Of a stretch of 64,000 bases of DNA, positions 6,988 to 54,018 are shown one piece after another. The DNA lies in IMG/VR virus record IMGVR_UViG_3300032286_001864, positions 1 to 64,000 of that record; one strand, given 5' to 3'. Below the pieces are notes generated by a model. That model worked only from the letters and a program-made list of their open reading frames with translations, did not search any database and had not been told where the DNA came from. The stretch is from a virus. How positions within the stretch are numbered: the stretch's first letter is position 1; the number at the start of each line of letters is the position of its first letter. Made by a program: the position numbers and the translations under genes.

Positions 6988-7878
6988 ATGGATGACTTCT
7001 CCAAGCGCGTTGATCGAACCCTGGTGCTGATTGAGCGCGGTCACGAGTCGTTTCCGCTGAGCGCGGTGCTGTGGTCGGGCGGCAAGGACTCCATGGTCCT
7101 GCTGCACCTGCTGCATGACCTCGGGTTCCAGCCGCCGGTGATCTTCTTTCGCGAGCCATGGCAGCCGCGCCGGTACTCCTTCCACGACAGATTGATCCGG
7201 GATTGGGGATTGCAGGTGATCTCCTGGCATCCGAGCCTGGTCGCCTTCCAGTCGCATGGCGATGAGTTCGAGCTGCAGAACATCTACCGGCTCAACGGCG
7301 GCAACTTCTCCTGCCCCACGGGGATCACGCACCGCGGCCCTGCCCCAGCCGGTAAGAACAAAGACGAGCCCTGGGTTTGCGCGGTCGACATGGCGTACCG
7401 GCCGACCCAGGAGCGACTAAAGATGCAGACACCGTTCCAGGCGTTCTGGGTCGGGCACAAGGAGTGCGACACCGATGCCGTGCTGGGCGGCCCGGCTGGC
7501 ACCAAGGTGGACGCCGTGATGCGCGTCGATGGGGCCATGGCTCTGTTCCCTTTGCGGGACTGGAGCGATGCGGACATCTGGCGCTATATCGAGGCCTACA
7601 ACGTGCCCTACGACCGGGAGCGTTACCGGCTCATGGATCCGCTGCTCGGGCACCCGGTCGAGGATCCGGATCGCCGGCACAACATTGACTACGTGCATGC
7701 CTGCACGGCGTGCATCGATCCTCGGCCGGGCGCCCCTGAGTCCGTCTACTGCCCGAAGCTCGATTGCACGATCGCCAACTGCTCAGAACTGGTGCCCTGG
7801 ACGGAGCCAGTGAGGCCGAAATACATGGCCGAGAGGGAGCAGGAATCACTGCCTAGAATCGGCGCAGACTCGAAGTAG
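6988..7878 (+). CDS. PAPS reductase-family (adenine nucleotide alpha hydrolase-like) protein
   Basis: The PP-loop SGGKDS is at residues 30-35, the ATP-pyrophosphatase signature of PAPS reductases, ATP sulfurylase subunit CysD and DndC. Other family marks are the PLRDWSDADIWRYI segment near residue 190 and a Cys cluster in the last third (CTAC, then three more Cys), which could bind metal or an Fe-S cluster. Length (296 aa) suits the family. Phage copies have been linked in general to sulfur chemistry or DNA modification, but the substrate cannot be told here. It lies four bases after one presumed virion gene and seven before another, unusual company for an enzyme. Confidence 0.85.
   Translation: MDDFSKRVDRTLVLIERGHESFPLSAVLWSGGKDSMVLLHLLHDLGFQPPVIFFREPWQPRRYSFHDRLIRDWGLQVISWHPSLVAFQSHGDEFELQNIYRLNGGNFSCPTGITHRGPAPAGKNKDEPWVCAVDMAYRPTQERLKMQTPFQAFWVGHKECDTDAVLGGPAGTKVDAVMRVDGAMALFPLRDWSDADIWRYIEAYNVPYDRERYRLMDPLLGHPVEDPDRRHNIDYVHACTACIDPRPGAPESVYCPKLDCTIANCSELVPWTEPVRPKYMAEREQESLPRIGADSK
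7854..7859 (+). promoter_or_regulatory. -10-like element TAGAAT
   Basis: The sequence GCCTAGAATC inside the end of the PAPS-reductase-like gene is 26 nt before the ATG at 7886. The same GCCTAGAATC word recurs at 22306. Confidence 0.5.
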
Positions 7879-10828: not shown

Positions 10829-12373
10829 ATGGCAGACCTTGCGCTTGCCAGGGCACACAAACGCTCTGGGCGTCTCACGGCGCGGCGCGTCCCTCAGTCC
10901 AAGGCCGACTTTGAAGTCGTCAGCGAGCGCGTCAAGCTGGCTCGTGACGATTTTGGCGTTTTCTGCACTGCGATGGGCAAGCCGCCGGCGCCGCACATGC
11001 TGGAGTGGCACCGAGAGCTAATTACCGGCAACAGTAATGAGCACCTGCTTGATATTGCAGGGGCTGATGAATGCTTACTAAGTCCGAGAGGTTCAGCCAA
11101 AAGTACAGTCATTGGCCTGCTTTGTGCTTGGTGTATCGGACGTCATACTCTAGCAAAGAAGTTATTACGAATCCTTTACGTTTCATTCATTGTCGACGTC
11201 GCCCGGGGCAAGAGCGCCGCGATCAAGAACACGATCCTCTCCGAGGCCTACCAGGAGATCTTCCCCTGCGTGCGGCTCTCCAAGACTCGCACCAGTGACG
11301 AGCTCTGGTCGATCGACTTCGAGCACGCCGAAATCGACATCCGCGGGGAGGACGCCTTCACGCTGGCCTGCGCGGGCCTTGCCGGTGCGATCACCTCAAA
11401 GCGATCAAACCTGGTCATCCTCGACGACTTGATCAAGTCCAAGAAGTCGATCGAGAACCCGGAGATCCGCCGGGAGATGGAAGCCAACTGGAACAGCGTG
11501 ATCGTTCCGACCATGTTCCAGGGCGCCCGGGCGATCGCCTTGGGCACTCGCTTCCACTTCGACGACGTGTTCGCAACGACCTTCATTGAGCGCAACGGCT
11601 GGAAGGTCATGATCCAGGCGGCGCTGATGTTCGACGACGAGGGCGTGCCCCGCTCGTATTGGCCGGAATGGTGGTCTCTCGAATACTTGCAGGACCTGCA
11701 GGAGAAGGATCGGGTCTCGTTCGCGTACCAGTACATGAACCGTGCGGTGCGCTCGACCGAGCTGGGTATCTCGCCAGATCTGTTCATTCGCGGCCAGATC
11801 CCCGATCAATTCGACTTAATTGGCGTCGGCATGGACCTCTCCTCCGGGATGAAGGAGCGCAACGACTACACCGTTTTCATGCTGGGCGGCTTGGACGGGG
11901 ACACCTTCTACATCATCGACAAGCGGCGGATCAAGACGATGGGAAACATCGAGAAGGTCGAGGCCCTCTGCGAGCTGCTGCACGAATGGAACCTGCTGGG
12001 GCGCGACCCGGATGGCCGCTACCTGCCGACCGGCTCGGACGTGACGATCTGGCCGGAAGCCGTCGCCTACCAGAAATCGTTCGAGGGCGACTTCAAACGG
12101 ATTGCGCATCAGGAGTCGAGCCTGGTCCGCGAGCCGCTTTTCAACCTGCGGGTCCGGCCGGTTACTGGAGTCCGCGGGGACAAGCTGGCTCGCTTCCGCG
12201 GTGTTATGGGCTTGTTCGAGACCGGCAAGGTCGTCTTCAATAGGTACCGAGACTTCCGCGTGGTCTTCGACGAGGTCGTGAACCTGGGCAACTCCCCGCA
12301 CGATGACTGCGCTGACGCCCTGCAGATTTTGCTAGATCAGGGGTCCCGGCGCGGCAAAATCCACATTGAGTGA
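10829..12373 (+). CDS. terL: Terminase large subunit
   Basis: ATP-driven DNA packaging motor and nuclease. The Walker A motif is SPRGSAKST (residues 85-93) and Walker B is LVILDD (195-200). A C-terminal RNase H-like nuclease begins at GVGMDLSSG (Asp336), with the late acidic pair in SPHDDCADAL near residue 495. At 514 aa it has a normal length. The ATG at 10829 is preceded by a TACGCT -10-like element only 6 nt upstream. A 59-nt gap separates it from the portal gene. Confidence 0.92.
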   Translation: MADLALARAHKRSGRLTARRVPQSKADFEVVSERVKLARDDFGVFCTAMGKPPAPHMLEWHRELITGNSNEHLLDIAGADECLLSPRGSAKSTVIGLLCAWCIGRHTLAKKLLRILYVSFIVDVARGKSAAIKNTILSEAYQEIFPCVRLSKTRTSDELWSIDFEHAEIDIRGEDAFTLACAGLAGAITSKRSNLVILDDLIKSKKSIENPEIRREMEANWNSVIVPTMFQGARAIALGTRFHFDDVFATTFIERNGWKVMIQAALMFDDEGVPRSYWPEWWSLEYLQDLQEKDRVSFAYQYMNRAVRSTELGISPDLFIRGQIPDQFDLIGVGMDLSSGMKERNDYTVFMLGGLDGDTFYIIDKRRIKTMGNIEKVEALCELLHEWNLLGRDPDGRYLPTGSDVTIWPEAVAYQKSFEGDFKRIAHQESSLVREPLFNLRVRPVTGVRGDKLARFRGVMGLFETGKVVFNRYRDFRVVFDEVVNLGNSPHDDCADALQILLDQGSRRGKIHIE

Positions 12374-12432: not shown

Positions 12433-14634
12433 ATGGCCCAGCAAGACACCGGACGCTTTGAGCAGATCCTCGAGGCGGCTCGCGAACGGAAGAGCGACAA
12501 CGGCGCCGACACGACAATCGTGTCCGGGCATCTTGCACAGATGCGGCTGTTCATGCTCCGGCAGGGCATCGAGTTCTACCCCAGGGCCGACACTTACGGA
12601 TTCCGGCACCCGTTCCTTGAGAAGCTGATCGAAGAGAACGAGATCGATCAGCGGCTGGAGGGCATCACTGATGACTTCATCGCTCGGGGCAAGGGGTTGT
12701 GGTTCTTCCGCCCGGTCGGCAACAACTACCGCATCATGTGGTTTGGCCGTGACGACTATAAGGCGTACTACGACTCCGACCTGCAGCTCGAAGAGCTTGA
12801 CCTGATCTATTCCTTCCAGTCCCGGGCCAACGTGGGGGCTCCGGCTCTGCAGCAGCCCGGAGGGGCCAAGAAACAGTACGTCCGGTTGTCGGTCAAGCGG
12901 GATCAGATCGTCGAGAGCATCTCGGACGAGAGGCCGACATTCGATACGCCGCTCCCGGTCGACACTCTCACCGGCCGGCGCCGGACGACCAATAACTCGT
13001 TGGGGTTCGTCCCTGCTATCGAGGCCTTCAATTGGATGCGCTCGACCGGCATGGACGCCACGGGCGACTTCGCTGGACTTGAATCGCACATCCTCAAGCA
13101 CGACCGGCTGGTCCGGAACATCGGGGACAACATCAACTTCTTCGGGAGCCCGACTCTCGTCTCGAGCCGACCTAAGAGCGACCTGGTCGAGGCCGGTGAC
13201 GGCGCTTCCGCTCAGCGACCGACGATCAGCAGCCGTGCGGGCTTCTCCTCAGAGGATCGCTCAAGCACTCGCTTCTCCTTGACCGGTGCGCCGACACTGG
13301 ACGGAAGCGTCAGGGTGCCAAGGCTGATTGCCAATCTTGAGTCAACGGACCGGGTCCAGTACATCTCGCCGAATGCCGTCACCGGTGACCAGAACCTCTA
13401 CGCCCGCCAGTACCGGGAGGAAGTGCGCACGGCTCTCGGGGGCGTCGATGAACTGGGCATCAGCTCCGGCGCTACGGCCTACGAGATCAAGAGCCTCTTC
13501 GGGCGGGCGGCGACTACGGCCCTTCGTAAGTGCCGGGGGCTGCTGACCTACGGGCTCTGCAAGCTGCTGAGCCTGGTGATCTACAACGAGGAGCGGATCT
13601 TCCGCGAGAGCTTCTCGATGGCGGTGAACGTCTTGCCGCCGGATGCTCCGATGAAGGAAGACTTCGAGGGCGACGACGAGGCCTTCTCCGCCGCTGAAGA
13701 GAAGTACCGGGCCGGTTATGCCAAGTATCTGGACAAGCTGGATGCCGCGATCGGGAAGGCGATCGAGAAGCAGGAGTTTCCGCCGGGAGTGGTCGGGCTG
13801 ATCCCGGACGGGGATCGCCGGATCGAATGGCGCTGGAGAGGGCCGGTGTTCGAGGAGTCGACCGAGGACATCCTGAACAACTCGATCGTCGTCCGGAACC
13901 TACAGGAACTCGGGGTCAACTCAATCGAAGCCCTGCGCTACCTGTTCCCGAGCAAAACCGACGAGGAAAGGAGCGCTATGCTCAATGGGTACCCATTCAG
14001 GCTGGCTCAGGCGACGCAGCAAAGCATTGCGACGTTCCTGAACCTCATAGGATCGATGCGGCAAATACCGCATCCTCAAGCGCCCAATCTGCCACTCATC
14101 GCAGACGCCAGGCTCGACCTGACACCCTTCCTCTACCGAACCTTTGATTTCCTCAAGCGGGAGCTGACTTATGCAGGACAGTTTGGTGATGCCCCAGGCT
14201 CAGGCGACCCCGCAGAGCTCGATCCCATCCAACGTGCCCGCGTCAATGCAGGCCGCCCCGTCGATGCAACAGGCGCCGATCGGGCAGCCTTCGTACCCGA
14301 CGCAGCCCAGCTATCAGCAGCCCGCACCGCCGGCCCAGGATCCATGGCAGGCGGCGTACAGCAACCTGGCAGGTCGTTTGAGCGCGACGCCCCAATACCA
14401 GCCCCAGGAGCCCTCATGGGCACCGACCCTATCGGGAAGCGCCTACCAGGCTCCCTACCCTTCGGCCGTTCCCAGCTACCCCCCGGCATACAGTTCGGCG
14501 ACGCCGACCTACGCGCCCCAAGCAATGCCGGCGTATTCGCCGAGCTTGCAGAACGCGTGGCCAAGCGCCCCGAGCGCACCAGTCGCCCAGCACGCTCAGG
14601 GCGTCGACGGGTACCTCGACAACGTCAGCAATGA
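12433..14634 (+). CDS. Portal protein
   Basis: Large (733 aa) protein immediately after the large terminase, the canonical portal position. It is a mixed alpha/beta protein with a DNA-translocation-like core; the segment around residues 380-430 is helical and hydrophobic, and 430-470 is acidic. The last about 155 residues are Pro/Ala/Arg-rich and basic at the end (RPARSGRRRVPRQRQQ). That part lies over the beginning of the next gene in another frame and may be a late overprinted extension. A large podovirus-type portal is my reading; no short diagnostic motif exists. Confidence 0.75.
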   Translation: MAQQDTGRFEQILEAARERKSDNGADTTIVSGHLAQMRLFMLRQGIEFYPRADTYGFRHPFLEKLIEENEIDQRLEGITDDFIARGKGLWFFRPVGNNYRIMWFGRDDYKAYYDSDLQLEELDLIYSFQSRANVGAPALQQPGGAKKQYVRLSVKRDQIVESISDERPTFDTPLPVDTLTGRRRTTNNSLGFVPAIEAFNWMRSTGMDATGDFAGLESHILKHDRLVRNIGDNINFFGSPTLVSSRPKSDLVEAGDGASAQRPTISSRAGFSSEDRSSTRFSLTGAPTLDGSVRVPRLIANLESTDRVQYISPNAVTGDQNLYARQYREEVRTALGGVDELGISSGATAYEIKSLFGRAATTALRKCRGLLTYGLCKLLSLVIYNEERIFRESFSMAVNVLPPDAPMKEDFEGDDEAFSAAEEKYRAGYAKYLDKLDAAIGKAIEKQEFPPGVVGLIPDGDRRIEWRWRGPVFEESTEDILNNSIVVRNLQELGVNSIEALRYLFPSKTDEERSAMLNGYPFRLAQATQQSIATFLNLIGSMRQIPHPQAPNLPLIADARLDLTPFLYRTFDFLKRELTYAGQFGDAPGSGDPAELDPIQRARVNAGRPVDATGADRAAFVPDAAQLSAARTAGPGSMAGGVQQPGRSFERDAPIPAPGALMGTDPIGKRLPGSLPFGRSQLPPGIQFGDADLRAPSNAGVFAELAERVAKRPERTSRPARSGRRRVPRQRQQ

Positions 14635-15524: not shown

Positions 15525-15845
15525 ATGGCTGATCGTGCCGCAGCCAAAGCGAGGGCCAGTGGTCACATCGAGGTTGCCGGCGAGCGCTTCGAGGGGCTGA
15601 ATCAGCCGAAGCGGACCCCGGGCGCCAACAAGAAATTCGCGGTAGCCGTCAGGAATCCCAGGACCGGTGATCCGCAGATTGTCCGATTCGGCGATCCCTC
15701 GATGGAGAACTACCGCAATGGTCCCAATGGCCGCGGGGGGCATGGCGACGAGGGCCGGCGTGACAACTTCAAGTCCCGGCACAACTGCAGCGAGAAGACC
15801 GACAAGACAACGCCCGGGTACTGGAGCTGTCACTGGTCCTGGTGA
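15525..15845 (+). CDS. Small phage head-type protein with FGDPSMENY motif
   Basis: A short basic N-terminus is followed by a compact domain of about 90 residues with RTPGANKKFAV, VRFGDPSMENYRN, RHNCSEK and a Trp-rich end (YWSCHWSW). From memory this resembles the DUF5872-type domain found alone or fused to phage head proteins. A clear paralogue lies at 53734-54018. Likely virion-associated, exact role unknown. Confidence 0.7.
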   Translation: MADRAAAKARASGHIEVAGERFEGLNQPKRTPGANKKFAVAVRNPRTGDPQIVRFGDPSMENYRNGPNGRGGHGDEGRRDNFKSRHNCSEKTDKTTPGYWSCHWSW

Positions 15846-18628: not shown

Positions 18629-19222
18629 TCATTTGTCTGTGGACTGGATCAAGGCACGGCCATGTGAGCTGCCAAGACGCAGCGTATGTCGCATGGAGCG
18701 ATGGACCAGGGGCCTCAAGCAGGACGCAAGGTCGTGCATCTGTTGCGGGCCAAAGCGGATGATGGGCCTCGTGCCAGGCAAGAGGGACGAGGCGACACCC
18801 AGTTGCTGGATCGCATGATTGACGAGTGCGGCTTCGTCTGATGAGTCAAGCCAAATCTCGCCGCTGCGGCAGATCCAGCGGCCACGATCAAGCCAAAGGC
18901 ACGCAATGCCCTGGGCTCCGGCGACCTGGAGGGCCTCTTCATTGATGCCGCCTTCGAGGATCTCGACGGCTCTTTCCAGGTACGGTGATTGGATCCGTAC
19001 GCGGCGGAGGTCGTAGTACCCCCTGCCGGAGATGTCGTCTTCCTCGACACGGATTGGTTGACGAATCGAGCGCCTCAGCGCGCGGACTTGGTGCTCAAGG
19101 TATGTGGCCTCGGTTTCCAGGCGGCGCATTTCCAACCATGGTCGCTGGCGAACCCCTTTGCGGCACAGTTGTCCGATCCCGAGCGAGTAGGCGACGGCCA
19201 GGCTGACGAAGCTTGCCGTCAT
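18629..19222 (-). CDS. Degenerate LAGLIDADG-type homing endonuclease-like protein
   Basis: 197 aa. Residues 10-45 align with a first LAGLIDADG motif and its following strand (SLGIGQLCRKG, then WLEMRRLETEATYLEHQ), but the catalytic acid is replaced (LGIG instead of LGDG, Ile16). The second motif is LWLDRG near residue 110, with its acid kept, after the usual 'SP.LE...IL' linker. The C-terminal half (IRFGPQQMHDLASCLRPLV) matches the neighbour's (LLFGPEQATRLREALRPHA). Probably nuclease-dead or repurposed. The start overlaps the neighbour's stop (ATGA). Confidence 0.6.
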   Translation of the reverse strand: MTASFVSLAVAYSLGIGQLCRKGVRQRPWLEMRRLETEATYLEHQVRALRRSIRQPIRVEEDDISGRGYYDLRRVRIQSPYLERAVEILEGGINEEALQVAGAQGIACLWLDRGRWICRSGEIWLDSSDEAALVNHAIQQLGVASSLLPGTRPIIRFGPQQMHDLASCLRPLVHRSMRHTLRLGSSHGRALIQSTDK

Positions 19223-19917
19223 TGCCAGTCCGGAGCGAATAGGTGTGCCCTACTGGAAGGAGCATGCGGCCTAAGCGCCTCCCGCAGACGCGTAGCTTGC
19301 TCAGGCCCGAAGAGAAGGCGAGGTGAGCCCGTGCTCCTTCCTGCCTTGAGCCGGGGGTACATCGCGGTCGAGGCCGCACCGGTGAGGGATTCAAGCCAGC
19401 TGCTGACGATCCGCGCTTCTCCTTCGGTTTGACCGACCCGGCGCAGAAGGATCCCCTGGTCCATGAAGGGCCTTGCGCCCTCAGCCCAAAGCCAGGCTGC
19501 TGCCCTTGCATCGAGGATTTCAAGCGCTGGCGATGTGATCTCACGCTCGCCGCAGGGGTAGAGGAGGTTGTAGATCAGGAGCAGCTTGTCCGACGTGAAA
19601 CGGAAGCGGAGCACGGTTGTCGAGCGACCCGATTCGCGCTGCTGGGTTCGATAGGGAGTAATGCGCGCCGTCGTCGGCACCCAGCGGCGAATCTCTTCGG
19701 CCTTCTCCTCCAGGAAGCTGCGCTCGCTCTCGCCGCCGTGCATTGCCGCGGTGATGCGTTCTTTCGTTGGCGTGCGACTGCGGACTAGGCAGCCGTCTGC
19801 CAGCAGCACGCCAAGCACTCCCCGTACGCCCTGTGTGTTCAATTTCGCCACATCGCTGCCGCTAGCGTAAGGCCTGGCACGCAACCCGCGCGCTTTATCC
19901 CTCATCGCTCGGAGCAT
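19219..19917 (-). CDS. LAGLIDADG homing endonuclease
   Basis: The frame is open into the capsid gene, but the first sensible ATGs are at 19917 and 19905 (232 or 228 aa). Motif 1 is GVLGVLLADGCL (Asp41 from 19917) and motif 2 is AAWLWAEGARP, both with the acidic residue kept, separated by about 110 residues as in single-chain LAGLIDADG enzymes. It cuts long DNA targets to promote its own spread. It is divergent from the capsid gene with only 8 nt between the two start codons, a usual target locus for mobile endonucleases. Confidence 0.75.
   Translation of the reverse strand: MLRAMRDKARGLRARPYASGSDVAKLNTQGVRGVLGVLLADGCLVRSRTPTKERITAAMHGGESERSFLEEKAEEIRRWVPTTARITPYRTQQRESGRSTTVLRFRFTSDKLLLIYNLLYPCGEREITSPALEILDARAAAWLWAEGARPFMDQGILLRRVGQTEGEARIVSSWLESLTGAASTAMYPRLKAGRSTGSPRLLFGPEQATRLREALRPHAPSSRAHLFAPDWQ
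19863..19868 (+). promoter_or_regulatory. Candidate promoter of the capsid gene inside the divergent endonuclease gene
   Basis: GCTAGCGT resembles the GCTAGCAT elements elsewhere and points at the capsid gene, with a 57-nt leader. It lies inside the N-terminal codons of the minus-strand endonuclease gene. Confidence 0.3.
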
Positions 19918-19925
19918 TTCTTCCC

Positions 19926-21068
19926 ATGTGGGTCGATAATGATTTCCCGAAGGTGCTGGGTGCCGAGCTCTACCGGCCCCATCCCGCCTACGTGATCGAA
20001 ATGGCCGTGGACCCCGTTGTGGTCCATGACTTCGGTGCGCAGCCCGGGCAAACGGTGCAGCTGGATCGGTACCGCTATTGGGGGAATCCTGGCACCAAGG
20101 ATTCCCGCGAGCGCACCGCTGATCAGACCATCGGCACAAGCTCCTCTCGGAACATCGTCAAGGAAAAGGTCCCTGTGACCCTTAAGGAGTACACGGGTCC
20201 TGCCGACCCGCAGAACTCCAGTCAGGCGAGCACCTTCAAGGTCGCTCGGGAAACCCTGATCACTGCTCAGCGCCTGCTGATTGACACAGCGTCCCTGCCG
20301 GTCTTCCACCAGAGCATCGGTTCGATGACCCTGCTGGACGACTATCGCCGCTGGCGCGATCGCGTCTTCGCGGACGAGCTGTTCAAGGCCGAGGCCAACG
20401 GGAAGTCCGACTCCGTCCAGGGCGGCTACTACTTCCCCAAGAGCAAGACCAAGACGGGTGTCACCGTCGCGGCGTACGACGCGAACCAGTCTGCCAAGTT
20501 CGGCGTGAAGGATGACCTCCTCGAGGTCGTTCTGCAGCTGCGCAAGCGCAACGTGCCGACCTTCGCTGATGGGAACTATCGAGCCATCCTCGATCCCACC
20601 GCGATGAAGCACATGCGGCAGGACTCCGACTTCCGCGAAGTGGCCCGCTATCCCGGCTCCGGGATGGTTGACCCCAGCCAGCCGTACCTCGCTCCTAACG
20701 CCAGCTTCTACACGGGCATGGGCCCTGGCTACGGCCAGGCCGGCTTCGTGGCAGGGCAACCTGTCATGCCGACCGGCTTCGTGTTTGAGGGCGTTCGCTT
20801 CTTCGAGTCGACCAACCTGCCCGAGAAGTCGTTTACCGCAACCATTCCGGTGACCGGTAACAGCTCCTCCGCTACCTATGAAGCAGCCCCCCTGCTGTTC
20901 TTCGGGATGCAGGCAATCGGTGTCGGCATCGGTGGCGAGAACGCTCAGATCCTGCTGAACAACAACGACGACTTCAGTCGTTTCATCATCATGATCTGGT
21001 CGCTGTACGCCGGTTTCGAGATCCTGAACAGGGATTTCGTGACGGTTGCATACTCTTTCGTCTACTGA
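19926..21068 (+). CDS. Major capsid protein
   Basis: 380 aa. Segments such as LDRYRYWG, RLLIDTASLPVFHQSIG, DDYRRWRDRVF and AILDPTAMKHMRQDSDFREV look like an HK97-fold capsid protein of the N4/P22-like branch, from memory of such proteins rather than a diagnostic motif. It follows the scaffold gene cluster, apart from the inverted island, and precedes a decoration-type protein, which supports the call. The ATG at 19926 lacks a clear Shine-Dalgarno element, surprising for so abundant a protein. Confidence 0.7.
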   Translation: MWVDNDFPKVLGAELYRPHPAYVIEMAVDPVVVHDFGAQPGQTVQLDRYRYWGNPGTKDSRERTADQTIGTSSSRNIVKEKVPVTLKEYTGPADPQNSSQASTFKVARETLITAQRLLIDTASLPVFHQSIGSMTLLDDYRRWRDRVFADELFKAEANGKSDSVQGGYYFPKSKTKTGVTVAAYDANQSAKFGVKDDLLEVVLQLRKRNVPTFADGNYRAILDPTAMKHMRQDSDFREVARYPGSGMVDPSQPYLAPNASFYTGMGPGYGQAGFVAGQPVMPTGFVFEGVRFFESTNLPEKSFTATIPVTGNSSSATYEAAPLLFFGMQAIGVGIGGENAQILLNNNDDFSRFIIMIWSLYAGFEILNRDFVTVAYSFVY

Positions 21069-30345: not shown

Positions 30346-31614
30346 TTACGAATTGCTGCTCGGGCGGTCTCGCAGCCGAATTTCGACCCGGTTGGGATCC
30401 CCGACGTAGAGAACCTCGTCAACAAGCTCCAGCAGCACTGCCCGGAGTTCTTCCGTGGTAGCGGCTTCAAGCACGCCGGGTCGCAACAGGAGCTCCTGCA
30501 GGCCGGTCCAGTTCGCTGAATTGATCGGCGGCGGCGCCAGCAACTCCAGTCGCAGTGTTTCGATGGCCTGAGCCAGGCCGGGTACCCCCTGGGCGGCTAA
30601 GGCTTCCAGCTGCTCGAGATGTGCTCGCTTGATGCGTTCCTCTGGGCTGGGCTCAACTTCCCCCGAGGACGCGGCATTGAGGGGACCCAACAGGGCGGCA
30701 CCTCGCAGGGCTTCGAGCGCCTGGTTGATGACCTTCCATTCCGCAAGGCCGCGACCCCAGCGCGGGCAGTGCAGATGCGTGCACTTCAGCCGGGGGAGGC
30801 CATGAGCAATGGTGTAGTGCATGGCCTTGCCGCACTCCGAGCAGCGGACCAGGCCGGAGAGAGCGCGAATCACCCGAGGGGCTCTGGTGCCTCCCCTCTG
30901 GCGGGAGTCGATCAGCCGCCGCGCCTGTTGCCATTCCTGCCAGGAGATCAGAGCGGCGACTCGGTCTGGCTCGTTGCTGACGATGCCCCGCAGGATGGGA
31001 TTGTCGATCCAGCGGGCCAGGCCGCGAGGGCTCCAGTCCAGGCCGTGCAAGCGGATCGTGCCCGGCAGGTTGAACTCTTGCGCGGCTAGCTGCTCCCAGA
31101 GATTACGGGCCTCTGGAAATCGCTCTGGATGGGGTACCACCTGGGAGCCGTCGTACAGGTAGCCGAAGGGGACCCGGCCGCAGGCATAGTGACCGGCGGC
31201 CTTCCTGCGCGATAGGCCGTTTTTGATGTTGATGCTCTTGATCATGGAGTCGACCTCGTTGACTACGCTCATCACCCCGGTGATCATCCGATCGGCCGGT
31301 TTGTCGACCTGAGACGGCGTACCGTCCAGAAGCCGTACCTCGATTCCCAGTCGAGCGCAGATCCGGAACAGTTGCACGTCTTCCCCCCGGCGGCTCATCC
31401 GTTGCTGGGACCCAAAGACGACCCGACGAACGCGCCCTGATGCGACGAGTCCGAGTAGCTCCTCCCAGCCCGGGCGCGTGCCGTCCTTGAATGCTGACTT
31501 CCGTTCAGAGATCACGCGATCGCAGCCGGCTCCGTACAGCTGCTGGATTTGTCCCTCGATACTGGTGTCCTGCTCGACTTTGTCGGTCGAGACGCGGGCG
31601 TAGCCGATGATCAC
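30346..31614 (-). CDS. Large serine recombinase, XisF-type integrase
   Basis: 422 aa. Catalytic resolvase domain at residues 1-140: IIGYARVSTD with the nucleophile Ser9, then the helix D/E region (ADRMITGVMSVVNEVDSM). A recombinase domain follows (residues 145-220, CGRVPFGYLYDG), then a zinc ribbon with CSECGK and CTHLHC, then a C-terminal helix. The layout matches cyanobacterial XisF-type recombinases and phage serine integrases, though it is on the short side. It probably integrates and excises the phage. An imperfect inverted repeat 27 bp upstream is an att candidate. Confidence 0.88.
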   Translation of the reverse strand: MIIGYARVSTDKVEQDTSIEGQIQQLYGAGCDRVISERKSAFKDGTRPGWEELLGLVASGRVRRVVFGSQQRMSRRGEDVQLFRICARLGIEVRLLDGTPSQVDKPADRMITGVMSVVNEVDSMIKSINIKNGLSRRKAAGHYACGRVPFGYLYDGSQVVPHPERFPEARNLWEQLAAQEFNLPGTIRLHGLDWSPRGLARWIDNPILRGIVSNEPDRVAALISWQEWQQARRLIDSRQRGGTRAPRVIRALSGLVRCSECGKAMHYTIAHGLPRLKCTHLHCPRWGRGLAEWKVINQALEALRGAALLGPLNAASSGEVEPSPEERIKRAHLEQLEALAAQGVPGLAQAIETLRLELLAPPPINSANWTGLQELLLRPGVLEAATTEELRAVLLELVDEVLYVGDPNRVEIRLRDRPSSNS

Positions 31615-31815: not shown

Positions 31816-32955
31816 ATGGCGACCAGGAGGTTATTCGGGCAGACCTACGACGAGATCGCCATCGTTGCCGCTGCGCCGATTCCGGTGGACGTTGGCTCAG
31901 CCGTGGTCAACATTGGGACGGCTGTTGAAATATCGAACGACGCCGGGAACCCGCTGCCGGTTTCGGGAAGCGTCAGCATCACCGGAAGCGCAGCGGTCAC
32001 CGGCCCGCTCACGGACACGCAGCTCAGGGCTACTGCGGTGCCTGTCTCCGGCACGTTCTGGCAGGCCACTCAGCCAATTTCGGGAAGCGTTTCGATCACG
32101 GGGACCCCAACCGTTACCGGGCCACTGACTGACACACAGCTGCGAGCGACCGCTGTTCCCGTCTCTGGCACGTTCTGGCAGGCCACTCAGCCAGTAAGCG
32201 GCAGCGTTTCGATCACGGGCACCGCAGCAGTTTCAGGACCGCTCACGGACACCCAGCTCCGCGCTACTGCGGTGCCTGTCTCCGGCACGTTCTGGCAGGC
32301 CACGCAGCCTGTCTCCGCCGCTTCCCTGCCGCTCCCCAGTGGCGCTGCGACAAGCGCCAACCAGACCACCACCAACACCAGCCTGAGCAGCATCGACGGC
32401 AAGTTGGCTGCCTTGCAATCTGGAGCCGTCCCGATCGGCGACAACAGCGCCAGCCTCACCGTTGACGGCACCGCCTACGCCGCCACGGTGTCGTTCACCA
32501 GGCCTGCCAATACGACGGCCTACACCGCTGGCGATGTGATTGGAACCGGCGCCAGCAACGACGCCATTCACACCCTGAGCAGCATTGGCAGCAGCGGCGG
32601 CTATGTGGTGGTGCAGAGCATCGAGCTGGTCTTGGGGATCAGCGCGGTGCCGTCTGGCATGACGTCATTCCGAGTTCACTTTTACGACAGCTCGCCCACC
32701 GCAGCGGCCGACAACTCCGTGTTCGATGTTGCCAGCGGCGACCGCGCCAAGTATTTGGGCTACATCGACATGCCTGCCCCGGTTGACCTGGGCTCCACGT
32801 GCTTCACGCAGATCGACTACCCCGGCAAGCTGTTCAAATTGGCCAGTGCCAGCACTTCCCTGTTCTGCGAGTTGCAGACCATCGGGGGCTTCACCCCTGC
32901 GGCTAACTCCGAGGCCTACATCCTGCGGGTCAAGACCCTGGAAGCTGGTAAGTAA
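31816..32955 (+). CDS. Tail fibre with three 39-residue repeats
   Basis: 379 aa. After a 47-residue head come three copies of a 39-residue beta unit containing SGSVSITG, GPLTDTQLRATAVPVSG and FWQATQ. A Ser/Thr/Ala linker and a globular beta domain of about 170 residues follow (YVVVQSIELVLGI, FRVHFYDSSP). Shaft repeats plus a C-terminal head are typical of phage fibres. A single-base overlap joins it to the next gene. Confidence 0.75.
   Translation: MATRRLFGQTYDEIAIVAAAPIPVDVGSAVVNIGTAVEISNDAGNPLPVSGSVSITGSAAVTGPLTDTQLRATAVPVSGTFWQATQPISGSVSITGTPTVTGPLTDTQLRATAVPVSGTFWQATQPVSGSVSITGTAAVSGPLTDTQLRATAVPVSGTFWQATQPVSAASLPLPSGAATSANQTTTNTSLSSIDGKLAALQSGAVPIGDNSASLTVDGTAYAATVSFTRPANTTAYTAGDVIGTGASNDAIHTLSSIGSSGGYVVVQSIELVLGISAVPSGMTSFRVHFYDSSPTAAADNSVFDVASGDRAKYLGYIDMPAPVDLGSTCFTQIDYPGKLFKLASASTSLFCELQTIGGFTPAANSEAYILRVKTLEAGK
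31957..32307 (+). repeat. Three 117-bp tandem repeats
   Basis: Exact spacing of 117 bp (31957, 32074, 32191, next partial at 32308), in frame with the fibre gene, coding for 39-residue shaft units. Copy number could change by slippage or recombination. Confidence 0.85.
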
Positions 32956-34232
32956 TGGGCCATCCAATCCGCAGAACGCAAGCTGCACCCTGGCTGAAGG
33001 ATTCGTTATGGCGCGGGGCGCTGGCGGTGCCGTCGCTCGATCTGCGCTTTGCTGATAACAAGTCTTTGATGGATTCGGTTTCGGGTCAGAACCTGATCAC
33101 GTTCTCCCGTGCCAGTTCGGCAACGTACATCGACTCCACGGGGACACTGCAAACGGCCTCAACGGATGTGCCGAGGTTTGATCACAACCCAACCACCGGG
33201 GAGAGCTTGGGGCTGCTGGTGGAGGAGCAGAGGACAAATTTGTTGTTACAGTCGGAGAATCTTGGGACAACTTGGACGCTTTCTGAAGCGACTGTCTCAT
33301 TAAATACAGCCATTGCTCCAGACGGTCAAACCACGGCAGATACTGTAATACCTAGCAATGGTGCTCTTGGAGTTCCTCGCCAAGATGTTCTACTCTCAGA
33401 CTCAACTATTTATACTTTTTCAGTATTTTTTAAAACGGCTGGCCTCAACAGTGTTAATCTTCAATTTTTCAACAAAACAAATACTTTTCATGGAAGTAAA
33501 AATTTAGATTTATCCACTGGTGCTCTTTCTGGTAGCGAATATATAGGCGCTACATCAGTTGTTGCCTATGGTAATGGCTGGTATAGATTGATACTGGCCA
33601 ACCTTGGCAGTGGCACAGGAGCAACCAGTCCAAACGTTCGCATTGTTCCTAGTACAACAGGCAACGGTACTTCAGGGTTTTATATCTGGGGCGCACAACT
33701 AGAAGCCGGATCTTTCCCCACCAGCTACATCCCCACCACCACCGCAGCCGCCACCAGGGCCGCCGATGTTGCAACGATTACGGGCACGGCGTTCAGTTCG
33801 TGGTATCGGCAGGATGAGGGGACGGTGTTTGCAGCAGTTTACTTGCCTCAATTAGGAAAGGCGGCACGGATTATAGCGGTTGATGATGGAAACTTCGTCA
33901 ACATGTTAGATATAACAACAACCGGCTTAGATACTATGGGGATTGAAGCAGTAGCTAGCGGTAGCTATGGAGGAGGCATTATATCGTCAAATTCTTTTGC
34001 AAATGCCAATCCAAAGATTGCTGCAACGTACAGCTCTGGTGCAAATGAATCGGCGTGCCTTAATGGGGGCACAGTTGCAAGTGGAAATATCACGCTGCCA
34101 TCAACATCATTGACAACAATGCGGTTGGGGTGGCAATCAAATTTTGCGAATTTCTTAAACGGCACCATCCGCCGCCTCACCTACTTCCCCGCCCGCCTCC
34201 CCGACACCACGTTGCAGAGGCTCACGCAGTGA
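32955..34232 (+). CDS. Tail-fibre tip protein with lectin-like domains
   Basis: 425 aa. Residues 25-110 follow a common phage fibre pattern (SLDLRFADNKSLMDSVSG, FSRASSATY, RFDHNPTTGESLGLLVEEQ). A central carbohydrate-binding-like beta domain (WTLSEATVSLN to YIWGAQLEAGS) and a C-terminal LamG-like domain follow. It probably binds a host surface glycan. Codons of the central part (about 33240-34150) are markedly AT-rich compared with both flanks, a sign of acquired DNA. Confidence 0.75.
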   Translation: MGHPIRRTQAAPWLKDSLWRGALAVPSLDLRFADNKSLMDSVSGQNLITFSRASSATYIDSTGTLQTASTDVPRFDHNPTTGESLGLLVEEQRTNLLLQSENLGTTWTLSEATVSLNTAIAPDGQTTADTVIPSNGALGVPRQDVLLSDSTIYTFSVFFKTAGLNSVNLQFFNKTNTFHGSKNLDLSTGALSGSEYIGATSVVAYGNGWYRLILANLGSGTGATSPNVRIVPSTTGNGTSGFYIWGAQLEAGSFPTSYIPTTTAAATRAADVATITGTAFSSWYRQDEGTVFAAVYLPQLGKAARIIAVDDGNFVNMLDITTTGLDTMGIEAVASGSYGGGIISSNSFANANPKIAATYSSGANESACLNGGTVASGNITLPSTSLTTMRLGWQSNFANFLNGTIRRLTYFPARLPDTTLQRLTQ

Positions 34233-34576
34233 TCTGCTATCAATTCCCCAGCCGCGCAATCTGGAGAACCCTGGCCCTACAGACCGGCCTGGCTGCCTTG
34301 GTAGGCGGAGAGTTCCAACTACTCGGCGGCCACAATATTGCCATCGACGAAGTTGGAACGGTGGTAGATGTTGAGGCAATGCTTGATGCCAATGGGACTG
34401 TGATCACCCCTGCCGTCCTGGCGCCTGGGTTTCATGTCAACCTGATCCACCCCGACCCGCCGCAGCAGCTTGACTCATATTTGATCGTGGTCAACTCTCC
34501 CAGCCGAATCTTCCTGGGTCAGGACGGGTCGGTCCCCGATGACGAACTCCTGGCCACCATTGAAACCCTGTTGTAG
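34229..34576 (+). CDS. Small tail-fibre accessory protein (115 aa)
   Basis: The longer frame starting at 34130 is a shadow; the GTG at 34229 overlaps the previous stop (GTGA) and starts MICYQFPSRAIWRTLAL. Mixed beta content (PGFHVNLIHPDPP, YLIVVNSPSRIFLG). A chaperone or accessory for the fibre, as often follows fibre genes, is a guess. Confidence 0.6.
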   Translation: MICYQFPSRAIWRTLALQTGLAALVGGEFQLLGGHNIAIDEVGTVVDVEAMLDANGTVITPAVLAPGFHVNLIHPDPPQQLDSYLIVVNSPSRIFLGQDGSVPDDELLATIETLL

Positions 34577-34750: not shown

Positions 34751-34756
34751 TAGGCT
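34751..34756 (+). promoter_or_regulatory. -10-like element TAGGCT
   Basis: TAGGCT is 21 nt before the GTG start of the NblA-like gene, so this gene could be expressed independently of the fibre genes. Confidence 0.4.
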
Positions 34757-34777: not shown

Positions 34778-35125
34778 GTGGAGGAAGAAGTCCTACCGCT
34801 TGAGCAGCTGTTCCAGCTGCGTCGCCTGCGGGACCAGTTGCAGGGCCATGACCGCGAAGAGCTGATGGAGATCATCCTGCAGGGGCACGAGAGGCTGCTG
34901 ATCGAGCGTCGCTGGTTTCGAATGGTCATGGAAGCTACGGGGATCGAGACCAGCGAAAGCAGCGGCGAGTTTCAGCTCATGCCCGAAACAGAGGAGGAAT
35001 TGATCGCGGTCTTCGGGAGGGTGCCGAGCGAAGAGGAGCTGACCGCCTACGTGAATGAACGCCTTGAGGCCGCCAGAATAGACGACGTGGACATCGAGGC
35101 GATCGCCCTCGGCTTGGAGGATTGA
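34778..35125 (+). CDS. nblA-like: NblA-like phycobilisome degradation protein with C-terminal extension
   Basis: Residues 6-53 follow the NblA pattern: LPLEQLFQLRRLRDQ (the L-EQ-F-L motif), then REELMEII and LIERRWFRMVM, the two-helix hairpin by which NblA binds phycobiliprotein and brings Clp protease to the antenna. Cyanobacterial NblA is about 55-65 aa; here an acidic extension of about 60 residues (ETEEELIAVFGR, EEELTAYVNERLEAARIDDV) follows. NblA is known from some freshwater cyanophages. It has its own promoter-like element and sits beside the lysis genes, so late expression is likely. Supply of amino acids or relief from light stress is the inferred benefit. Confidence 0.72.
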   Translation: MEEEVLPLEQLFQLRRLRDQLQGHDREELMEIILQGHERLLIERRWFRMVMEATGIETSESSGEFQLMPETEEELIAVFGRVPSEEELTAYVNERLEAARIDDVDIEAIALGLED

Positions 35126-35128
35126 GCC

Positions 35129-36349
35129 TTGGACCGGAACACAGTCATACAGGCGGCCAGGGAGGCGGCAAGAAGCCAGGGGATCCGAGAAGGGCTCTAC
35201 CTCGGGCTGGTTGATACGGAGTCCGGGTTCAGGGTCGACGACAGGAGCCCGGTAGGTGCGGAAGGGCCTGCGCAACTGATGCCTGCGACGGCGGCGGAGC
35301 TGGGTGTCAATCCGGCTGATCCAATCCAGAACCTCAGGGGAGGAGCCAAGTACCTCAGGCAGCAGCTTGATCGCTTTGGCGGCGACGAGCAGAGAGCATT
35401 GGCGGCCTACAACGCTGGCCCCGGAGCCGTCCAGAAATACGGCGGCATCCCCCCTTACGCGGAGACCCAGAACTACGTCAAAAAGGTCCTTGGGAAGGCC
35501 GCTGCTTACTCGGGCGCGCCTGCCGCCACTGCCGGGGCGACGCCTGGTCTCCAGCCCGCTCTCCTTCAAGGATCGCCTGCGCGCCTGACCGGAGGGAATC
35601 CACTGGAAGGGCTGATAAAGGGACTGGTGAGTGACGCTCTAAGCCCTGGCGGCTTTGGTACGCCGAGCGCTGCCCGGGCGGGAGGCACACAAAGCCAACC
35701 AAGTAGCACACCGCCGGCCAACAACATCAGGGGACTGAGCCGAGACGAGATCAAGCAAACGATCATCGGGGGCCTTCTTGGCCATTCCCCTGGTAGCCCT
35801 GGGGCGACTTCCCTCGGGGGGTCGGGTAATCGCATGGCGGCCAGTGATCCGTTTGCGAGTGCCCTTGCCCTTGCCCAAGGCAGAAAACAGACCGCTTCAT
35901 CCGCCGGTGGTGCGGGTGAGGATTCATTCGACACCGCGGTGGACGGACTGATTACTGGCATCTTCGCCCCTAGGGGCGCAGCAGCCCAGAAGCCGGCCAC
36001 TGGCGACGGCGGCGTGGCTGCTCAGGGCGGAACGGGGGGACCCCGGATTGTCGAGTACCTGACTGGCGACAAGTCGCATCCCGGCTACGATGCCAGCCAC
36101 GGAGGATCCAACTATCACGAGCACCTGGCATTTGGAAGTACGACTGAACGCGACGCGGCCATGAAGTTACTCAAGGGCCAGGGCATCCAGATCGGGTCCG
36201 TCAACGACGGCAGGCACGCTTCAAAGAGTTATCACTACTCCGACCAAGCGTTTGACGTGCCCGCCTCACAAGTCCCCGTGGGACAGGAGCAAGTGCTTTC
36301 GCGCCGGGTGCGGGAGATTCTCAGGGGCGGCGGCTTCCAAGGGCTTTGA
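35129..36349 (+). CDS. Two-domain lysin: SLT transglycosylase plus M15-like domain
   Basis: TTG start three bases after the previous stop (406 aa). Residues 20-125 are a soluble lytic transglycosylase domain with catalytic Glu31 in DTESGF, then GPAQLMPATA and LAAYNAGPGAV. A Gly/Ser/Ala linker of about 170 residues follows. The last 110 residues hold GYDASHGGSNYHEHLAFG and SYHYSDQAFDVP, reminiscent of zinc D-Ala-D-Ala peptidases of the M15 group. It cuts the peptidoglycan glycan and possibly its peptides, as an endolysin or tail lysin. Confidence 0.8.
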   Translation: MDRNTVIQAAREAARSQGIREGLYLGLVDTESGFRVDDRSPVGAEGPAQLMPATAAELGVNPADPIQNLRGGAKYLRQQLDRFGGDEQRALAAYNAGPGAVQKYGGIPPYAETQNYVKKVLGKAAAYSGAPAATAGATPGLQPALLQGSPARLTGGNPLEGLIKGLVSDALSPGGFGTPSAARAGGTQSQPSSTPPANNIRGLSRDEIKQTIIGGLLGHSPGSPGATSLGGSGNRMAASDPFASALALAQGRKQTASSAGGAGEDSFDTAVDGLITGIFAPRGAAAQKPATGDGGVAAQGGTGGPRIVEYLTGDKSHPGYDASHGGSNYHEHLAFGSTTERDAAMKLLKGQGIQIGSVNDGRHASKSYHYSDQAFDVPASQVPVGQEQVLSRRVREILRGGGFQGL

Positions 36350-36429: not shown

Positions 36430-36615
36430 ATGAATTACCTCGCTGAATACGCGTCCCTGATCGTGGCCCTCCACACGGCGGCTCTGATCATCGTCAATCT
36501 GACACCTACTCCCAAGGACGACGAGGCCCTGGGGGCAGCCGGTAGCCTCATCGTCAAGCTCTACCGTGCGCTGGAGATTATCGCGGGTCTTGTGACGCCC
36601 TTGGCCAAGCGCTGA
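36430..36615 (+). CDS. Putative holin
   Basis: 61 aa. One membrane segment (SLIVALHTAALIIVNL, residues 9-24), then TPTPKDDE, a motif seen in a group of small phage holins, then a second amphipathic-hydrophobic helix (LIVKLYRALEIIAGLV). It follows the lysin gene by 80 nt. It would make the hole that lets the lysin reach the wall. Size and pattern fit well, though no assay-level motif exists. Confidence 0.6.
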   Translation: MNYLAEYASLIVALHTAALIIVNLTPTPKDDEALGAAGSLIVKLYRALEIIAGLVTPLAKR

Positions 36616-39451: not shown

Positions 39452-40210
39452 TCAAGGGGCAAGGAGGGCGCGATTGAGCCGGTTGGTTTCGTACCAGGCG
39501 TAGATCTCGGGGATCCAGTTCTTGACGTGCCCAGCGACGAGCTCCATGACCCAACGAACCTCCTGCTGAGCGTCCCCCTTGCTGCGCACATCGAGCAGGT
39601 GAAACCAGCTGCGGATGTTGCCGGTCAGGCAGACGTTCTGCAGGTAGCTGGTCGGCAAGACGTAGCGGGCATGCTCTTCTGTGACATTCTTGGCGCGAAG
39701 GTCGGCGTAGTCCTGCGCGGCATTGAGCGCCAGGATCTTGAGCGTGGTGTTCTGCTGCTCCGTCCACTCGTAGCCATCCCCCTGGCGATCGCGGTAGACG
39801 CCTGGCGGACGGAAGTAAAAGACGTCTTCTACGGGGACTTCACCCCGGGCGACGCGCTCGATGCGGTGACCGGTGTAGCGCATCGATTGAACATCAAAGC
39901 TCAGGCCGACACGGTGCGTGCGGAGCTGCACCATCGAGTTGTGATCCATCTGGACCAGCAACGTCATATGGGCGTGCTCCAGGGGGCCGAAATGGCCGCG
40001 CTTGCTCTCCAGCAGCCGGGCGATGGCGATCTCGCCGCAGCGATCCTCGGGGATGTCGGTCGTCGGACAGAACTCCTCCGAGTAGTCGGTATGCAGGGCG
40101 ACGTAGGCGACCTGCTGCGGCAGCTCGTAGGCGCCGACACGCTCGGCCTTGAAAGGATTCTGCACGAGGAAGCGCTGGACTCCAGCGGAACCGTAACCCT
40201 TGGCGCGCAC
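39452..40210 (-). CDS. thyX: Flavin-dependent thymidylate synthase
   Basis: 252 aa, GTG start. Makes dTMP from dUMP with FAD, NADPH and methylene-THF. The ThyX signature is LRTHRVGLSFDVQSMRYTG (residues 96-114), with the RxHRxxxS core, and HFGPLEHAH precedes it as the usual HxPxEH-type helix. Common in cyanobacteria and their phages. It works with the dNMP kinase upstream in the same cluster to supply DNA precursors. Confidence 0.9.
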   Translation of the reverse strand: MRAKGYGSAGVQRFLVQNPFKAERVGAYELPQQVAYVALHTDYSEEFCPTTDIPEDRCGEIAIARLLESKRGHFGPLEHAHMTLLVQMDHNSMVQLRTHRVGLSFDVQSMRYTGHRIERVARGEVPVEDVFYFRPPGVYRDRQGDGYEWTEQQNTTLKILALNAAQDYADLRAKNVTEEHARYVLPTSYLQNVCLTGNIRSWFHLLDVRSKGDAQQEVRWVMELVAGHVKNWIPEIYAWYETNRLNRALLAP

Positions 40211-46555: not shown

Positions 46556-46692
46556 GGAGAGCTCATTCATCGCACTAGGTGTCTGCTGAGTCTTACAGCA
46601 AGAATGAAGGGTCTTGTCTCGCATCGTGTCCAATGAGTCTCACCGCATGCGACACGAAGACCCGAATCAGGTGGCGTGCCGCCAGGCGCCGG

Positions 46693-46698
46693 TAGCCT
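46693..46698 (+). promoter_or_regulatory. -10-like element TAGCCT
   Basis: GGTAGCCTGGGCT is 28 nt before the ATG at 46727; a TAGCCTGGGCT word also occurs at 36369 and 55261. Confidence 0.4.
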
Positions 46699-46726
46699 GG
46701 GCTCGCATTGCTACCCCTTGCGTGCC

Positions 46727-46957
46727 ATGTCTGACCAGTTGGCCCTGACTGTCGTGCAGCAGTTCGAGGTCGAGCGGATGGGCCGGGTGATCGATGCGAC
46801 CAGCGACATCGAGGCACTGCGAAAACTCAGCAAGCAACTGGTGCAGGCTTGGCACTGCCAGAAAGCGGCGACTCGCTGGGTGATGGGCCATGTCACCGGG
46901 CCGCCGATCCCTGGCCCCGATCCGTCGAGCTTCGGGGATCCTGAAGTGCTCAGCTGA
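46727..46957 (+). CDS. Small helical protein of cyanobacterial type (76 aa)
   Basis: Residues 3-50 form two helices: LALTVVQQFEVERMGRVID and EALRKLSKQLVQAWHCQKAA, ending in TRWVMG. The QQF motif, helix lengths and spacing recall NblA-type hairpins, but key NblA residues are not clearly there, and unnamed small cyanobacterial proteins with QKAATRWVM ends are an equally good match. Convergent with the primase gene, two bases apart. Confidence 0.55.
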   Translation: MSDQLALTVVQQFEVERMGRVIDATSDIEALRKLSKQLVQAWHCQKAATRWVMGHVTGPPIPGPDPSSFGDPEVLS

Positions 46958-53734: not shown

Positions 53735-54018
53735 TGGCCAGCATCCGTTACGCCGGCGAAATCTTTCAGGGCTACAACCAGCCCAAGCGAACGCCTGGCG
53801 AAAACAAGAAGTTCGCCGTGCTGGTCAAGGACAACGACGGTGATCAGAAGATCGTGCGCTTTGGGGATCCATCGATGGAGAACTACCGCAATGGCCCGCA
53901 CGGCAGGGGCGGCCATGGCGATGAGGATCGTAGGGTGAATTTCAAGGCCCGCCACAACTGCAGCGAGAAGAACGACAAGACCACACCGGGGTACTGGAGT
54001 TACCACTGGAGCTGGTGA
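53734..54018 (+). CDS. Second copy of the FGDPSMENY head-type protein
   Basis: 94 aa. Shares with the protein at 15525 the segments NQPKRTPGxNKKFAV, RFGDPSMENYRNGP, GRGGHGDE, RHNCSEK and the YWSxHWSW end; identity is high over about 80 residues. The N-terminus is shorter and different. Duplication of a head-gene into the accessory block suggests a variant virion component or a moved copy. Confidence 0.7.
   Translation: MASIRYAGEIFQGYNQPKRTPGENKKFAVLVKDNDGDQKIVRFGDPSMENYRNGPHGRGGHGDEDRRVNFKARHNCSEKNDKTTPGYWSYHWSW

Follow-up and report, generated by a model that had tools for sequence, protein, structure and literature searches.

The gene at positions 34778..35125 (+) of the analysed window (64,000 nucleotides out of the 81,948 bp of a virus record) encodes a protein of 115 aa, which combines an N-terminal part homologous to NblA with a conserved acidic C-terminal extension and is encoded directly in front of a lysin gene. 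NblA is a small adaptor protein by which cyanobacteria are induced to degrade their own light-harvesting antennae. Phage NblA as such is already known; the protein described here, with its conserved second acidic module, is taken as a homologue and not as a strict equivalog. The reading we prefer, with a probability of about 65%, is that the gene encodes a late-expressed Clp adaptor of NblA type, which would deliver phycobilisome proteins to ClpC-ClpP and is supplied with an added module.

The reading frame begins with GTG, ends with TGA and contains the motifs by which the initial annotation had recognised an NblA hairpin at residues 6–53: LEQ-F-L (residues 8–14), REEL (26–29) and RRWFRM (44–49). 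Pfam NblA (PF04485) was the best Pfam match of the protein (E 8.5e-5, 23.4 bits, residues 6–48 aligned with positions 2–44 of the 50-position model), and in the genome search the window copy received 24.6 bits against a curated gathering cut-off of 25 bits. Three relatives of identical architecture, L003 (30.6 bits), L004 (31.7 bits) and L006 (34.7 bits), exceed this cut-off, and for this reason the NblA signal is not ascribed to chance; the copy of L001 stayed below it with 19.4 bits. Alignments of L004 and L006 cover nearly the whole model (1–47 of 50, 32–35 bits). The HMM check envisaged for the hairpin therefore gave a significant result, marginal in the window copy and above the curated cut-off in relatives. 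Searched against PDB chains by phmmer, the window protein found NblA structures only weakly (E 0.19 and worse), and a profile made from four relatives found the NblA crystal structures 2qdo, 2q8v and 3cs5 at E about 2e-4. The PHROGs search gave no convincing match for the protein. The NCBIfam equivalog model of NblA (NF045916) did not match the window copy, and the family as a whole reached 20.7–28.7 bits where 100 bits are required. Judged by these profiles, approximately the first 53 residues are homologous to NblA, and the extended protein is best classed as an NblA homologue outside the strict equivalog of about 60 aa. A reading frame at 46637–46954, flagged by a small home-made HMM as a second NblA of the window, was dropped, as Pfam gave it no support.

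AlphaFold2, supplied with 13 viral sequences, predicted helices at residues 8–21, 26–53, 72–79 and 85–110 with moderate confidence (mean pLDDT 71, pTM 0.40), the hairpin block being modelled at pLDDT of about 75–82. The two-helix hairpin (residues 8–21 and 26–53) is thus present in the predicted fold, and in this model the first two helices correspond to the helix-loop-helix of NblA, which occupies residues 6–53 (34793..34936 (+)). The acidic tail of about 60 residues described initially is equally real: residues 57–115 (34946..35122 (+)) have a net charge of −15 and a pI of about 4, and the extension is present in five viral contigs. It is composed of a variable linker (57–68), a helix (72–79) and a long helix (85–110), whose placement relative to the hairpin is uncertain in the model, and carries the motif LPETEEE..FG..PS.EEL.AYV with the near-invariant tail RIDDVDIEAIALGLED. 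Foldseek with both models against PDB and viral structures returned nothing significant, a result that is uninformative for a short helical model, and the extension alone had no significant match among PDB sequences. Two resemblances were too weak to be accepted: that of residues 54–115 to an HNH endonuclease of an E. coli phage (36%, E 0.09) and that between one relative and sigma-70 region 3 (E 0.038).

IMG/VR contained five more contigs with the full architecture, four of them distinct and one a duplicate. Their identity to the window protein is 70% (L003), 62% (L001), 50% (L004) and 47% (L006 and L007, the proteins of which are identical), and protein length is kept at 115–118 aa across the five viral contigs, window included. 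A scan of the genome collection with the viral family gave no relative. A profile of five viral sequences matched 92 of 386 cyanobacterial genomes (E ≤ 0.01), nearly all matches beginning at residue 2–6 and ending between 46 and 68; one extended to residue 83, running through a stop codon. All 12 loci that were read are recognisable nblA genes, often in tandem pairs, which end shortly after helix 2, and the extension (residues 57–115) found no match in any of the 386 genomes. Cyanobacterial NblA (PF04485; 1ojh, 2qdo, 2q8v, 3cs5) shares with the viral protein the LxLEQxFxLR motif, the two-helix hairpin and reciprocal profile matches, but averages about 63 aa (PMC4103541), whereas the viral protein adds about 60 acidic conserved residues.

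Conservation along the protein was estimated by a codon comparison of five distinct sequences, from which the close L004–L006 pair was excluded. As synonymous differences are mostly 0.4–0.86, silent sites are close to saturation, and the comparison was left at pN and pS, without fitted rates. The most conserved stretch of the whole protein is formed by its last 19 residues (97–115), for which pN is 0–0.07 versus pS of mostly 0.46–0.75, followed by residues 69–96 (pN 0.15–0.26) and the N-terminal motif (0.16–0.27). Helix 2 is the fastest-changing part (pN 0.23–0.51), and in more distant pairs it changes nearly as much as synonymous sites do. Identity in the extension and in helix 2 differed at p 5.5e-6 (Fisher, single-pair test of window versus L004). 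The main exception is the tail in the pair of window and L001, where pS is 0.15: approximately the last 60 nt (35065–35122 in the window) are nearly identical DNA while the rest has diverged, which could be due to recent exchange or to a constraint or signal at the DNA level. In other pairs the tail protein is conserved despite silent change. The extension is therefore under strong purifying selection and is not an appendage.

NblA is described as an adaptor of ClpC, which binds ClpC by its N-terminal motif and phycobiliproteins by its C-terminal motif (PMC4103541, PMC7966870, PMC9602691). The first of them, LxLEQxFxLR, is kept in the viral protein, residues L6, L8, E9, Q10, Q13, L14 and R15 being invariant in the family, and the end of helix 2, where the phycobiliprotein-binding motif is reported, is poorly conserved. 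Since it is the reported phycobiliprotein-binding half that is least conserved, the cargo may have changed. With its N-terminal motif and extension conserved and its helix 2 changing fast, the protein could be either an NblA that has gained a further contact or an adaptor whose cargo has changed.

The location beside lysis genes that had been proposed for the gene was confirmed: it lies between tail-fibre genes and an SLT lysin, and the neighbourhood of lysis genes is kept across five contigs. Upstream, a tail (fibre) protein gene (32955..34232 (+), phrog_5939) is followed by a small ORF (34130..34576 (+), phrog_18574). Downstream, a lysin with an SLT transglycosylase domain (35129..36349 (+); Pfam SLT 8.1e-19, phrog_669 endolysin 1.3e-33) precedes a gene for a small membrane protein of 61 aa, weakly assigned as holin-like (36430..36615 (+); Pfam Holin_SPP1 at E 0.19 only, phrog_9685 at 1.9e-4), which is also conserved in this position in L001 and L003. 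The nblA-like gene is directly 5' of the lysin in all five viral copies; the window lysin starts 3 nt past its stop, stop and start overlap in L001 and L004, and 9 nt separate them in L003. The two genes are thus arranged as a unit. The promoter-like element that the initial annotation had attributed to the gene was not found: the sigma-70 scan of 33.8–37.7 kb gave no promoter, and the exact consensus is absent from the whole window. A TAGGCT box (34751..34756 (+)), situated about 21 nt 5' of the start codon and common to L001 and L003 at a similar distance, hints faintly at a possible −10 element; it is absent upstream in L004 and L006. Three relatives (L001:4652-4900(-), L003:1355-1744(-), L004:2395-2739(-)) have, upstream of the nblA-like gene, a divergent gene of an excisionase-like helix-turn-helix protein (phrog_539, E 2.8e-4 to 9.4e-7), and none was seen at the equivalent position of the window.

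A comparable gene was registered in the freshwater Synechococcus phage S-EIV1, where AHV82245.1 (106 aa, annotated as hypothetical; KJ410740.1 73902-74222, in our coordinates L010:23902-24222) is NblA-like with an acidic tail, matches Pfam NblA with 16.3 bits (model 2–48) and is encoded 20 nt 3' of the lysozyme gene. Used as a query, it found 31 IMG/VR loci, all complete ones ending in an acidic tail, and members of this type reach 26.5–27.4 bits on Pfam NblA. A lysozyme-like gene precedes the nblA-like one, at a distance of about 20–40 nt, in all six contexts that were read, and three of these six neighbours were confirmed as Phage_lysozyme. AHV82245.1 and its approximately 30 IMG/VR relatives thus resemble the window protein in joining the NblA hairpin to an acidic tail, in adjoining a lytic gene and in belonging to a related lineage, but their tail is shorter (about 40 aa against about 60 aa) and partly low-complexity, and their gene comes after the lytic enzyme, not before it. 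Between the two families an alignment is obtained for the hairpins (P 1.6e-4), and for the extensions no homology could be demonstrated (profile P 0.33). Table 2 of PMC5332604 has no nblA entry for the S-EIV1 group. An unannotated nblA-like gene is added here to S-EIV1, whose lineage is described as widespread.

Picocyanobacteria, the likely hosts, were searched with a 13-row profile including the S-EIV1 type. Among 400 genomes of this family it gave a single match, itself of S-EIV1 type, and Pfam NblA exceeded its cut-off in two, one of them by the same S-EIV1-type gene; recognisable nblA is therefore rare there. The matched gene (G118:C41, L147:5402-5710 (-)) lies near a nuclease-like ORF on a contig that also bears a trigger-factor-like ORF, and may be a relic prophage, a host gene or a binning artefact.

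If the preferred reading of a late-expressed NblA-type Clp adaptor is correct, the N-terminal motif would dock on host ClpC, and the hairpin, alone or together with the extension, would contact phycobiliproteins. The separate S-EIV1-type family, with an acidic tail of its own beside lysozyme, and the lack of psbA in records of these lineages count in favour of this reading. The extension would give the adaptor a further contact, with ClpC or with the cargo, or would set the adaptor's own turnover; an altered engagement of Clp or of the phycobilisome, as supposed in the initial annotation, is a plausible idea. If expressed late, together with the lysin, the adaptor would cause the antenna to be taken apart just ahead of lysis, which would free amino acids and reduce light damage. 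An extended NblA gene placed before a lysis gene thus suggests a modified antenna-degradation signal late in infection, and, to judge from the link with lysis, the antenna may be broken down as a late step that precedes it. Engagement of ClpC and of the phycobilisome by NblA is so far only partly mapped, and a natural NblA in which the added half is the most conserved could show which part sets Clp recruitment and which the choice of cargo. A bolder version, to be taken as tentative, is that the extension is a new domain recognising substrate or protease. The protein would then be a phage Clp adaptor of two domains, with a cargo or an efficiency that host NblA does not have, and in two cyanophage lineages NblA would independently have acquired an acidic module and its gene a link to lysis.

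It is conceivable that the adaptor was retargeted, i.e. that the ClpC-docking half was kept, the phycobilisome is no longer the cargo, and the extension recognises a different protein, of the host or of the phage, and passes this on to ClpCP. The conservation of the N-terminal motif and of the extension, together with a helix 2 changing in distant pairs nearly as fast as synonymous sites, agrees with this idea, and so does the rarity of canonical NblA in the picocyanobacterial family sampled, since the adaptor may then work independently of NblA partners in the host. However, rapid change of helix 2 could equally track varying phycobiliproteins, and L004 and L006 still match almost the entire NblA model, so that we regard retargeting as rather unlikely. 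It appears less probable still that the hairpin protein works with the adjoining lysin or holin as a chaperone, inhibitor or lysis timer. That a lysis gene adjoins it in two quite dissimilar arrangements, before the SLT lysin and after the S-EIV1-type lysozyme, speaks for such a role, but shared late expression accounts for this adjacency as well, and the hairpin is recognisably that of NblA. Moreover, the lytic enzyme is not the same in every lineage (SLT, M23, phage lysozyme), which makes one dedicated lysin partner unlikely. Finally, one can suppose that a charged helical hairpin merely resembles a short NblA model by chance, as the window copy is under the gathering cut-off of a model of just 50 positions. 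Several relatives above the cut-off, profile matches to structure chains and a reverse search that landed on nblA loci make this explanation so improbable that it was rejected.

According to the literature, cyanopodoviruses and cyanomyoviruses of marine and estuarine waters also have predicted nblA homologues (PMC9602691), and the initial statement, by which NblA is known from a few freshwater cyanophages, is too narrow. When expressed, phage NblA causes pigment loss (PMC4103541, PMC9602691, PMC7966870). Expression and pigment loss have literature evidence for NblA of the freshwater phages Ma-LMM01, MaMV-DC and PaV-LD (PMC4103541, PMC9602691); that of Ma-LMM01 is described as being of the ordinary kind, with the conserved residues (PMC4103541). 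S-SCSM1, S-TIM5 and related myoviruses encode a homologue of the 54-aa type (PMC9602691); the S-SCSM1 protein (54 aa) is without extension, is encoded beside virion and helicase genes and was not recognised by the Pfam NblA model in our search. The same HMMs found no NblA in Syn5, which was searched as a cyanopodovirus. No NblA with a conserved second module was found in the searched literature, the coverage of which is incomplete, so that an earlier description is possible.

The window phage appears to be an S-EIV1-related cyanophage of freshwater type. Its terminase large subunit (10829..12373 (+)), the lineage marker, is 51.6% identical to that of S-EIV1 over 97%, the next-best phage records being near 24%. 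The virion structural protein encoded after it (12433..14634 (+), phrog_20475), judging by this position probably the portal, is 42% identical to S-EIV1 over 96%, the sole phage record matched. HIP1 sites are in excess (12 versus 3.2 expected), which is consistent with a cyanobacterial host; this excess and the similarity to S-EIV1 are the two grounds on which such a host is assumed. The photosynthesis gene psbA was not found in five records of the window and S-EIV1 lineages (G000, L001, L003, L007 and S-EIV1), and the nblA-bearing phage Ma-LMM01 likewise lacks it. A serine integrase or recombinase gene among the tail genes (30346-31614 (-), phrog_95, 1.1e-37) suggests a temperate or formerly temperate phage, and an S-EIV1-like prophage was reported in S. 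elongatus UTEX 3055 (PMC9239245). The window also contains a ThyX-type thymidylate synthase gene (39452-40210 (-), PF02511, 2.5e-34), a LAGLIDADG endonuclease-like ORF that runs opposite to the structural genes (19222-20139 (-), PF03161, 3.8e-6) and a gene for a PAPS-reductase-domain protein (6988-7878, PF01507, 2.4e-11), possibly a sulfur-related auxiliary or DNA-modification gene. A small basic protein gene is present in two copies (15665-15845 and 53838-54018, 80% DNA identity), the products of which end in GYWS(C/Y)HWSW, and a similar basic protein is encoded 5' of the lysozyme in S-EIV1-type phages.
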